From the NCBI RefSeq assembly GCF_900113715.1, contig NZ_FOQK01000001.1, forward strand, positions 95,929 to 159,928: DNA of 64,000 bases, in the 5' to 3' direction. Positions 957 through 59,516 of the stretch are shown here, piece by piece; position 1 is the first letter of the stretch, and every line of letters starts with the position of its first letter. This DNA comes from Pseudoselenomonas ruminantium. Its GTDB lineage: Bacteria > Bacillota > Negativicutes > Selenomonadales > Selenomonadaceae. Below the pieces are notes generated by a model, which saw only the letters and a list, made by a program, of their open reading frames with translations, searched no databases and had not been told where the DNA came from. Both the position numbers and the translations under genes were made by a program.

Positions 957-1310
957 TGGTGGAGATGAGGAGAATCGAACTCCTGTCCGAAAATACTGAT
1001 CCATGGATTTCTCCGAGCGCAGTTTGTGGTTAGATTTAAGAAATCAGCCATCCACAAACAAACGGCATCATTCCGATCTCGATGAGAGTTCCCGTAAATG
1101 CCTCCGAGAATTGGCACTTAGGTATCCCGCTATTTGCCCCTTATCCATCCTCGCGGGAGAAGGACGGACAGGGGTTAGCCTTAAGCGGCTAAAGCGTAAT
1201 CTTCGTTAGCTTTTATATTTAAATAAAAGTTTTCACCTTACTGACGGGTTGATGACCCCCCGGCTCGCTATCCACAGAGCATATATCCCCGTCGAGACCA
1301 TTACATCCCC
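957..1310 (-). ncRNA. ssrA: transfer-messenger RNA (tmRNA)
   Basis: This RNA rescues ribosomes stalled on broken mRNAs and tags the nascent peptide for proteolysis, acting with SmpB. On the minus strand the 5' end GGGGATG pairs with the 3' CATCTCC, followed by discriminator and encoded ACCA; the T-arm GTTCGATTC is present just before. The resume codon opens a short reading frame (1210 down to 1181) that encodes ANEDYALAA and a TAA stop, a canonical tag ending in ALAA. Pseudoknot-type inverted repeats fill the remainder. Length is 354 nt, normal for one-piece tmRNA. A consensus promoter lies upstream at 1354-1382, and the transcript probably has a leader of about 37 nt removed by RNase P. Confidence 0.96.
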
Positions 1311-1414: not shown

Positions 1415-1444
1415 TAGACAAAAAGCGGGGAAAAGGCATATAAT
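1415..1444 (+). promoter_or_regulatory. Promoter for corA transcript
   Basis: TAGACA (1415-1420), an 18-bp spacer and TATAAT (1439-1444). Transcription would begin near 1451, giving corA an unusually long leader of about 195 nt. Confidence 0.65.
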
Positions 1445-1450
1445 GAAGGG

Positions 1451-1640
1451 CGGGAATTTTTCAGGCAGATTCCCGTTGACTATGAAAGAAAGGCTGGTGA
1501 GGAAAATGGACGATCACCCTGGAACGGCAGACCCTAAACGATGCAAGTTCAATACCATTGGGGAAGGTGCGCCATTTTCCTGCCCGCTGCGATGAAGCTG
1601 GCTGGCGATGGTGCTGTTTCCTCATGAAGAAAGGAGACAT
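1451..1640 (+). promoter_or_regulatory. Structured corA 5' leader with possible upstream ORF
   Basis: The leader starts with a hairpin CGGGAA/TTCCCG (1451-1475). Further on, GGAAAATGG (1501-1509) can pair perfectly with CCATTTTCC (1572-1580), while the overlapping TGAGGAAA (1498-1505) can instead pair with TTTCCTCA (1617-1624), which ends seven bases before the corA ribosome-binding site. GGTGA/TCACC (1496-1500 with 1514-1518) is a third alternative. Mutually exclusive stems of this kind are typical of Mg2+-responsive leaders, but I cannot match the conserved blocks of the M-box or any other riboswitch class I know. An open frame of 37 codons (ATG 1482 to TGA 1595) lies inside, without a convincing ribosome-binding site. 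Confidence 0.4.
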
Positions 1641-1646
1641 TCAGCC

Positions 1647-2600
1647 ATGCTTCAGATTTACAAATCGCTGGAGAGCGGCCCTTTGCAGGAGCTCACCTTG
1701 AAGACGTTGGAAAAGGGTGCCTGGATCAATATCGTCGATCCGACGCCTTATGAGCTGAAGGTGGTCAGCAATCTGACCGAAGTCGATCCGGACTTTCTGC
1801 GTTCCGCACTCGATGATGAGGAGCGTTCGCATACGGATATCGAGGACGACTCGGTCATGGTCCTGACCAACGTTGCAGTCTGCCGCGGGCAGGACAGTTA
1901 TGATGCCCTGCCGCTGGCTATCATCGTCACGGAGGAGTACATCATCACCGTCTGCCTCGAGGAAACGCCAGTCATGGCCGAGTTCAACGAGCGCACGGCG
2001 AAACTGTTCCGTACTTATAAGAAGACGCGCTTCCTGTTCCAGATCCTGTATAAGTCCATGACGTTCTATCTGCGCTATCTGCGTCAGATCAGCAAGCTGT
2101 CCGATGATATTGAGAACCAGCTGCGCCATGATATGAAGAACAGCGAGATCCTGCTCTTGCTTGAGCTGCAGAAGGGCTTGACGTATTTTAATGCGGCTAT
2201 CCGCTCGAATGGTGCCGTGCTCGACAAGCTGCTGCGCATGCGCAACAATCCGCAGCTCACGCCGATCCTCAAGGCATATGATGAGGACGAGGATCTGCTG
2301 GAGGATGTCATCATCGAGAACAAGCAGGCCAAGGAAATGGTGGAGATGTATAGCAAGATCTTGGCACGCATGGCCGATACGTTCACATCCATCATTGCGA
2401 ATAATCAGAACCTCGTGATGAAGTTCTTAGCGGCAATGACAATCATCATCGCTATCCCGACTGTCGTTTCGAGCTTCTTTGGCATGAATGTGCCAGTGCC
2501 TTTTGCCGACGATGGCCATGGGTTCTTGTATGTCATGATCATTGCCTTTGGCATCAGCATCTCGGGTGCTTATGCTTTGTGGAAGAAAGATATGTTTTGA
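1647..2600 (+). CDS. corA: CorA-family magnesium/cobalt transporter
   Basis: Pentameric inner-membrane channel for Mg2+ (also Co2+/Ni2+). The 317-residue product has the usual layout: a long acidic cytoplasmic N-domain, a long stalk helix, and two C-terminal membrane helices at about 261-281 and 292-312. The diagnostic GMN selectivity motif is present at residues 279-281 (context FFGMNVPVPF) in the periplasmic loop. I place the start at ATG 1647, which has AAGGAG 10 bases upstream; an in-frame GTG at 1608 lacks such a site. It has its own promoter and a long structured leader, suggesting metal-dependent control. A small unknown gene follows 14 bases after the stop. Confidence 0.93.
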   Translation: MLQIYKSLESGPLQELTLKTLEKGAWINIVDPTPYELKVVSNLTEVDPDFLRSALDDEERSHTDIEDDSVMVLTNVAVCRGQDSYDALPLAIIVTEEYIITVCLEETPVMAEFNERTAKLFRTYKKTRFLFQILYKSMTFYLRYLRQISKLSDDIENQLRHDMKNSEILLLLELQKGLTYFNAAIRSNGAVLDKLLRMRNNPQLTPILKAYDEDEDLLEDVIIENKQAKEMVEMYSKILARMADTFTSIIANNQNLVMKFLAAMTIIIAIPTVVSSFFGMNVPVPFADDGHGFLYVMIIAFGISISGAYALWKKDMF

Positions 2601-59364: not shown

Positions 59365-59390
59365 ATTAGCATCAATTGTATATTTTTATT

Positions 59391-59478
59391 CACTAGGGGC
59401 GCAGACTTGTTCTGCTGAGAGACTTATGTCGACCCTTGGAACCTGTTGGGTTAATACCTGCGTAGGGAAGTGAGAGGC
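59391..59478 (+). promoter_or_regulatory. TPP riboswitch (THI element)
   Basis: All conserved blocks are present in order: ACTAGGGG, CTGAGAGA, GACCCTTGGAACCTG and GGTTAATACCTGCGTAGGGA. It senses thiamine pyrophosphate and controls the following thiC, most likely by favouring the terminator at 59485-59516. Confidence 0.96.
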
Positions 59479-59484
59479 AAAGAA

Positions 59485-59516
59485 TACCGCTTAGCTCTAT
59501 GCTAGGCGGTTTTTTA
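59485..59516 (+). terminator. Riboswitch-controlled terminator
   Basis: CCGCTTAGC/GCTAGGCGG stem with TCTAT loop followed by T6. It lies between the riboswitch and the thiC ribosome-binding site. Confidence 0.88.

Follow-up and report, generated by a model that had tools for sequence, protein, structure and literature searches.

A candidate ribosome-operated translational attenuator in the corA leader of Pseudoselenomonas ruminantium and other Negativicutes

The corA locus and its promoter

We analysed a stretch of 64,000 nucleotides (hereafter, the window) from the genome of Pseudoselenomonas ruminantium, which is 3.11 Mb in size. Near one end lies a gene for a CorA-like Mg2+ transporter (Table 1), and the loci closest to it are those of Selenomonas ruminantium and other Selenomonas of the class Negativicutes. 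The promoter that an earlier note on this DNA had proposed for corA is confirmed as a promoter-like site of the sigma-70 type, from which we infer a transcription start at about position 1451 and a corA leader of about 195 nt. By eye, TAGACA...TATAAT pairs of like form are found 5' of the leader in close relatives, and a loose promoter pattern fits 56 of the 91 leaders described below. The hairpin at the presumed transcript start may protect the end of the mRNA.

Table 1. Features of the corA locus, in positions of the window
Feature	Position	Strand	Remarks
Promoter-like site, sigma-70 type	1415..1444	+	TAGACA-18-TATAAT; 11 of 12 consensus matches
5' hairpin	1451..1475	+	CGGGAAT...ATTCCCG, at the presumed transcript start; similar form in close relatives only (by eye)
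Shine-Dalgarno of the leader ORF	1496..1502	+	GGTGAGG in the window; kept in leader alignments
Segment A, leader Shine-Dalgarno/start region	1500..1509	+	AGGAAAATGG; pairs with 1572-1581
Leader ORF	1506..1595	+	MDDHPGTADPKRCKFNTIGEGAPFSCPLR; 29 codons and TGA; counterpart in 91 of 104 distinct corA upstream regions
Segment B, late in the ORF	1560..1581	+	1572-1581 pairs with A; 1560-1565 and 1569-1575 pair with C
Segment C, after the leader stop	1608..1623	+	pairs with B (1608-1614, 1618-1623) or D (1615-1622)
Segment D, corA Shine-Dalgarno	1632..1639	+	AGGAGACA; sequestered by C in a hairpin of 8 bp (1615-1622/1632-1639)
corA	1647..2600	+	317 aa, CorA-like Mg2+ transporter; PF01544, 160.2 bits

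Other features of the window include a tmRNA gene identified with Rfam (957-1310, minus strand), which is upstream of corA and divergent from it; a tmRNA lies upstream of corA, in either orientation, in 5 of 20 loci of relatives (L033, L035, L037, L059, L068). Directly 3' of corA there is a small ORF (2579-2839) that contains MMVESKLKAGVIFGDTVNQEYVYMPGSEVG and has no Pfam match, and sequence resembling it adjoins corA in about 10 relatives (by eye). The window also carries a TPP riboswitch (RF00059, 70.2 bits) at 59385-59485. In profile searches, the genome gave no match to the MgtE channel domain or to Nramp and no P-type ATPase above the MgtA cut-off, while two weak matches to MgtE_N, of 29 bits and less, were recorded.

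A conserved leader ORF with an acidic, proline-containing start

For comparison, corA upstream regions were taken from 30 loci and 20 further places in a sample of 60 genomes of relatives (55 of the 60 had a match, and the corA place was examined in 50 of these), together with 80 named loci; merging identical sequences left 104 distinct regions. These were searched for an ORF preceded by a Shine-Dalgarno (SD) sequence and starting with M-D, so that Asp2 is imposed by the search and its presence in 100% of the ORFs is no evidence. An ORF of this kind with a proline soon after the start is found in 91 of the 104 regions, corresponding to 71 of the 80 named loci and 45 of the 50 examined places of the relatives, two sets that overlap. 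Two candidate ORFs were present in each of L021 and L049, where the choice was made by hand, and the ORFs of L030 and L095 have no stop codon before corA. The 13 regions without a leader ORF are eight from named loci (L086, L087, L093, L094, L103, L105, L106 and L110) and five others (G033, G039, G050, G055 and G059). Several of L086, L087, L093, L094, L103 and L110 have, by eye, a promoter-like TAGAC...TA.AAT near corA.

The earlier note had placed a frame of 37 codons at 1482-1595. This frame is open and ends between the partners of the stem described there, but its start at 1482 is not kept in relatives, whose conserved start corresponds to the ATG at 1506; the resulting peptide has 29 residues, and the stop codon is at 1593-1595.

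Each of the 85 distinct leader peptides carries two or more acidic residues within positions 2-10 along with a proline within positions 3-7; of these features, only Asp2 was imposed by the search. The mean number of acidic residues per peptide is 2.51 in positions 2-10 versus 0.72 in positions 13-21, and basic residues are frequent at positions 11 and 12 (42% and 49% of 84 peptides, respectively). The ORFs range from 22 to 49 codons, with a median of 29 (based on 85 distinct peptides, of which two are truncated at corA). Among the 55 genes of the window, used as a control, three show a comparable N-terminus, with two or more acidic residues in positions 2-10 and a proline at 3-8, and a single one, corA, is preceded by a short ORF of the form M[DE]..P with its own SD.

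The peptide sequence varies across the class, while its character is kept: MDDHP in most Selenomonas and in Mitsuokella; MDGDHP and MDADHP in Schwartzia, Propionispira and Megamonas MAGs; MDDTPLQPEP in oral Selenomonas and Centipeda; MDTDYPSPEPP and MDAGPEP in Anaerovibrio and its neighbours; and MDVDRPS, MDVDIPS, MDVDHPS and MDADGPH in other families. In-frame insertions of codons are seen among the leaders, as in MD(x)DHP. For codons 6-12 of the MDDHP leaders, pN/pS is 0.49 in frame versus 0.91 and 2.22 in the other two frames; codons 2-5 served to define this set and are therefore of no use in tests for selection. A metal-binding (His/Cys) peptide was also considered and rejected, as neither residue is constant (His at residues 2-8 in 59 of 85 peptides, Cys in 64 of 85).

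Three mutually exclusive helices

Four segments of the leader RNA, A to D (Table 1), can form the helices A:B, B:C and C:D, which are mutually exclusive. A:B is the first of the two stems that had been noticed in the window, between GGAAAATGG (1501-1509) and CCATTTTCC (1572-1580); with the pair 1500/1581 it comprises 10 bp. In the window alone such a stem is unremarkable, since 35 of 500 shuffled leaders (dinucleotide shuffles) contain a perfect stem of at least 9 bp, and the minimum free energy of 1451-1660 has a z-score of -2.0 (7 of 200 shuffles as low). The reality of this stem rests on the comparison of leaders, in which it is conserved and covarying. The second stem, between TGAGGAAA and TTTCCTCA, is present in the window but not conserved: the full run of 8 nt is found in 2 of 49 cognate pairs versus 4.2% of swapped ones, and the mean run is 4.80 in cognate versus 4.84 in swapped pairs. 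Of the mutually exclusive stems put forward in the earlier note, only the first is therefore retained, with compensatory changes, and the relevant alternatives to it are B:C and C:D, which were not listed there.

To compare leaders, the duplex energies of each genome's own segments were set against those of swapped segments in 20,000 permutations over 49 dissimilar leaders; these come from 83 leaders, namely the 85 used for two-state folding (below) minus L116 and L119, and in L113, L118, L120 and L124 the corA start is 1-4 nt off, which shifts only the end of segment D. The cognate and swapped means are -20.0 versus -15.3 kcal/mol for A:B, -26.2 versus -17.3 kcal/mol for B:C and -13.6 versus -10.1 kcal/mol for C:D, and for each of the three helices 0 of 20,000 permutations were as good. 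The controls B:D (12,649 of 20,000) and A:D (12,816 of 20,000) show no effect, and the control A:C a weak one (725 of 20,000).

Covariation was counted for the window's own pairs across 33 leaders in an unfitted MAFFT alignment. In A:B, 85.8% of the cells are paired and double-change cells number 16 versus 6.9 +/- 1.8 in shuffles; B:C is 77.1% paired, with 37 versus 22.1 +/- 5.2; and C:D is 74.6% paired, with 18 versus 9.6 +/- 2.2, the shuffles ignoring the relatedness of the sequences. Sliding the partners by 1-3 columns lowers the cells paired, the double-change cells and the covariation score in 18 of 18 cases, a comparison that favours the actual pairs in that they were read off one aligned sequence. 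Two other measures are not clearly above the shuffles: the count of pairs showing double changes, which is matched or exceeded in 50, 257 and 88 of 500 shuffles for A:B, B:C and C:D, and the count of further pair types, for which these figures are 50, 334 and 276. RNAalifold, applied to 39 MDDHP leaders, returned two 4-bp helices only, probably because the real helices compete; the partner swaps and the counts for named structures were used in its place.

The distance from the leader stop to the corA start is 32-204 nt, with a median of 48 (89 leaders with a stop before corA), so that C and D would as a rule be free while a ribosome waits at the stop codon.

Predicted accessibility of the corA Shine-Dalgarno sequence

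The mRNA remaining with a ribosome at codon 5-6 (early) and with a ribosome at the stop codon (late) was folded for 85 of the 91 leaders, leaving out L030 and L095, which have no stop before corA, and L071, L101, L112 and L121, which exceed 200 nt. As controls, each leader was shuffled 40 times between codon 10 and the SD. The predicted probability that the corA SD is unpaired, early minus late, has a mean of +0.081 versus -0.079 in the shuffles; it is above +0.2 in 21 of the 85 leaders and below -0.2 in one, and only 37 of the 85 score within the top tenth of the shuffles made from them. For a ribosome at the stop, the mean unpaired probability of the SD is 0.27 versus 0.46 in the shuffles, and 63 of the 85 leaders are predicted to have the SD mostly paired (unpaired probability <=0.35); in 40 of 85 the SD is predicted to be mostly closed, by the same threshold, in both states. 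The window leader goes from 0.49 with an early ribosome to 0.04 with a ribosome at the stop, and the value is likewise 0.04 without a ribosome. In oral Selenomonas and Centipeda (MDDTP...), all 10 leaders (L027, L070, L072-L075, L077 and L079-L081) have a difference of zero or below. These folding predictions support a switch between competing helices on average, though not in the 10 leaders of oral Selenomonas and Centipeda.

Known riboswitches and the range of the leader

The earlier note had found none of the conserved blocks of the M-box in the leader and had suggested a covariance search against Rfam, which bears out this absence: at gathering score no family, the M-box included, matches the window leader, and at the relaxed threshold of E<=10 there is one chance hit. 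The M-box (RF00380) is likewise absent from the rest of the window, from the organism's own genome, from 20 corA loci of relatives and from 25 of 25 genomes searched in its own family (22 of the genus), and it is present in 8 of the 16 other genomes of the class in the sample.

A sequence-only model of the leader start (R1) matches 109 of 300 genomes of the class at E<=0.01, a count that is a lower bound as regards sensitivity and includes some chance matches among the weak ones. Twenty R1 matches, chosen as new, second or weak ones rather than drawn at random, were checked; 12 precede corA, 6 look like chance and 2 precede other transport genes. In a sample of 249 genomes of the phylum there are 7 matches at E<=0.001, 4 of them in the organism's own genus or family and 3 at the starts of longer ORFs without corA; since this search missed the leader-bearing genomes G026, G028 and G029, its failure to find the leader beyond the class carries little weight. 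Within the samples examined, the leader appears to be confined to the Negativicutes. Among the literature matches listed, which comprise titles and the beginnings of abstracts and few subscription papers, none deals with the corA leader described here or with such a leader in the Bacillota.

Candidate leader ORFs at other transport loci

The two R1 matches away from corA precede a gene for a cation P-type ATPase (L177; Pfam) and, in G071, a gene with a match to MgtE_N (L179, peptide MDDGPERD...). Thirty MgtE_N loci from the class were inspected. Some 86-108 nt ahead of the gene, 16 of them carry an ORF with an SD of its own that starts MDSGP... or MDAGP..., and in L257 the sequence MDTDPGG lies inside a longer frame. 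The gene of L241 encodes PRC, MgtE_N and CBS domains and is followed by an ORF for an Nramp protein, and L236 looks alike. The Nramp proteins carry DAGG and TTIT, which fit the signature DxxG-TxxA/T reported for NRMTs of the Mg2+ type (PMC8806188); mgtE-nramp operons under the control of M-boxes have been reported (PMC4072509).

Of the MgtE_N loci, 20 were included in the Rfam search; an M-box is upstream of the gene in 19 and two M-boxes in 7. The ORF of the MDSGP type lies between the M-box and the gene in 15 of its 16 loci, the remaining one (L244) having no M-box. Tandem M-boxes, then an MDSGP leader ORF and then an MgtE_N gene are found in this order in L241, L242, L243, L246, L247, L253 and L254. 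The occurrence of a like peptide on transcripts with a known Mg2+ riboswitch gives indirect support to Mg2+ as the signal at corA. A swap test of 12 leaders of the MDSGP type, start against pre-gene region, gives no support, with 12,591 of the 20,000 permutations doing equally well; the sequences are very alike, which leaves the test little power.

Loci for P-type ATPases of the mgtA type have an M-box upstream in 6 of the 15 searched (L200, L207, L209, L210, L212, L211), and in L200, L207, L209, L210 and L212 an SD-preceded short ORF (MDG[AT]..GGSHPH, MDSASGSG or MDAGGSRG) also precedes the gene. The mgtA leaders, MESDTSGERSP among them, are not clearly acidic and proline-containing. In 11 loci with a true MgtE domain, we found a few acidic, proline-containing short ORFs but no pattern common to them.

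A model of the corA leader

Comparison between genomes establishes the conserved ORF, its acidic, proline-containing N-terminus and the three mutually exclusive helices. On this basis, the corA leader is probably a ribosome-operated translational attenuator in which Mg2+ is sensed through the passage of the ribosome along the leader peptide. A ribosome would start at 1506 and make the N-terminus MDDHP...; at low Mg2+, it would be unstable on this acidic, proline-containing start and would stall early or, as we infer, drop off. Segment B would then be free to pair with C, so that the corA SD (D) would be exposed and CorA made. With sufficient Mg2+, the ribosome would reach the stop codon and cover B, upon which C:D would form and corA translation would be blocked. 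If no ribosome is present, A:B would form, and C:D would stay formed too. The lack of matches in this genome to the MgtE channel domain, to Nramp and to the M-box, and of any above the MgtA cut-off, also speaks for this reading.

The closest mechanistic precedent appears to be mgtQ/mgtB of Salmonella, which we regard as working alike and not as a homologue. In that system, stems 1:2 and 3:4 compete with 2:3, the mgtB ribosome-binding site (RBS) is inside 3:4, and destabilisation of the ribosome is reported to favour 2:3 and to open the RBS; in mutational analysis, the Asp2 and Glu5 codons of mgtQ are needed for mgtB translation, L31 counteracts them, and the Pro codon is reported as not required (PMC8092293). 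The Negativicutes leader has the same elements, namely a short ORF with acidic codons at its very start upstream of a gene for a Mg2+ transporter (85 of 85 peptides; PF01544), and competing helices that follow the same logic of 1:2 and 3:4 versus 2:3 with the RBS of the transporter gene in 3:4. In contrast, mgtQ has 8 codons, is located between mgtC and mgtB in an operon, controls MgtB and belongs to an enterobacterium, whereas the leader described here has 22-49 codons, lies in the 5' leader of corA in the Negativicutes and has no apparent sequence relation to mgtQ. The earlier note had pointed to CorL of Salmonella, a comparison that is apt in function, although mgtQ/mgtB is closer in mechanism.

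For MgtL, ribosomes are reported to dissociate at the acidic residues when Mg2+ is low (PMC11282234). As in our model, acidic and proline residues come early in MgtL (EPDP motif), and dissociation at low Mg2+ refolds the RNA and turns on a Mg2+ importer; the output at mgtA differs, being termination at a Rho site, whereas the predicted target here is the corA SD, and the phylum is another. In MgtL, a basic stretch follows the early acidic and proline residues, and a basic stretch also follows this start in the Negativicutes corA leaders. The corA genes of E. coli and Salmonella have a leader ORF of their own, corL, whose output is Rho-dependent and whose peptide has fewer acidic and proline residues, with a single proline in the conserved N-terminal region (PMC11552253), and a 'corA motif' is described, in what is available of its report, for Gammaproteobacteria and metagenomes only (PMC6429828). 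These share with the present leader an ORF and competing structures upstream of corA, but differ from it in the peptide and in that the predicted target here is the corA SD rather than Rho; the published range of the motif is Gammaproteobacteria, whereas the relatives of this genome are Negativicutes. The M-box (ykoK) is likewise a leader element of Mg2+ transporter genes in the Bacillota, but it is absent from the window, from the 20 corA loci of relatives and from the 25 own-family genomes searched, and in this class it is found ahead of other transporter genes. As far as could be seen, the leader would represent a known principle in a new instance, an mgtQ-like attenuator at corA that is conserved in much of the class.

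Alternative explanations

It is unlikely that the same four-segment attenuator responds to proline supply or EF-P-dependent stalling, that is, to charged tRNA-Pro, in place of Mg2+-dependent destabilisation. Such a mode of action, through proline-dependent stalling or uncharged tRNA, is conceivable: every leader has a proline in residues 3-7, and two to six prolines are present in 75 of the 85 distinct peptides; in the mgtC operon of Salmonella, the leader ORFs mgtM and mgtP are reported to respond to ATP and charged tRNA-Pro (PMC8092293). The early acidic residues of the Negativicutes peptides are, however, as constant as the proline, and the controlled gene encodes a Mg2+ transporter and is no proline gene. 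Attenuators of the tRNA-Pro type are defined by several regulatory Pro codons in every member, a feature that is missing here, as only one proline is present in 10 of the 85 distinct peptides, few for a sensor of tRNA-Pro.

Returning to the Mg2+-responsive attenuator, its output would be at the corA SD; that the same helices instead control transcription termination, intrinsic or by Rho, seems quite unlikely. Rho is reported to be used by corA of E. coli and Salmonella and by mgtA of Salmonella (PMC11552253), and a run of at least five T between SD and start is present in 4 of 91 leaders, with a run of six T after the SD-covering C:D hairpin in L020, L097 and L111 that resembles an intrinsic terminator overlapping the SD. 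The other 87 leaders lack such a run, and a ribosome at the leader stop is predicted to leave the corA SD mostly paired in the majority of leaders (see above).

The earlier note had left open a leader-peptide switch and an unknown metal riboswitch, of which the former holds up well and the latter finds no support, the conserved elements being the SD, the start, the first codons and the pairing segments. A riboswitch that binds Mg2+, Co2+ or Ni2+, with the short ORF incidental, is very unlikely. A structured leader upstream of a divalent-cation transporter gene would suit it, as would mutually exclusive helices, which are typical of riboswitches; but the window leader has no Rfam match, no metal riboswitch is found in 20 corA loci of relatives (a cobalamin riboswitch lies downstream of corA in L097 only), a conserved, unpaired aptamer-like core is not seen by eye in the alignments, and the conserved stretch consists of an SD, a start and codons in which indels keep the frame and constraint is specific to it. 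Just as improbable is a conserved upstream ORF that merely couples or dampens corA translation without sensing, as the two leaders without a stop before corA might suggest, since the acidic, proline-containing start and three competing, compensated helices are hard to explain without a switch.

Implications

The leaders at other loci allow a broader and more tentative proposal, which we consider possible: that the Negativicutes sense Mg2+ by means of the ribosome, through acidic, proline-containing leaders of an origin independent of the enterobacterial ones, at no fewer than two unrelated loci. These would be corA (MDDHP/MDxDxP) and the operon of the PRC-MgtE_N-CBS/Nramp type, where MDSGP may be a second sensor behind one or two M-boxes, while the M-box-free genomes of the Selenomonas genus and family (25 of 25) would rely on the corA peptide alone. 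If so, the MDSGP leaders behind M-boxes would permit two Mg2+ sensors to be compared on one transcript, and the 85 distinct natural corA leader peptides offer a ready series for finding N-termini that destabilise the ribosome.

In the papers found, as far as their available text extends, the sensing of Mg2+ by destabilisation of the ribosome on an acidic leader peptide is described for E. coli and Salmonella only. The corA leader, if our reading is true, would be a counterpart across a class of the Bacillota, at another transporter and with an independent sequence; it would explain how CorA is regulated in bacteria without an M-box, and would point to the ribosome as a general sensor of Mg2+.
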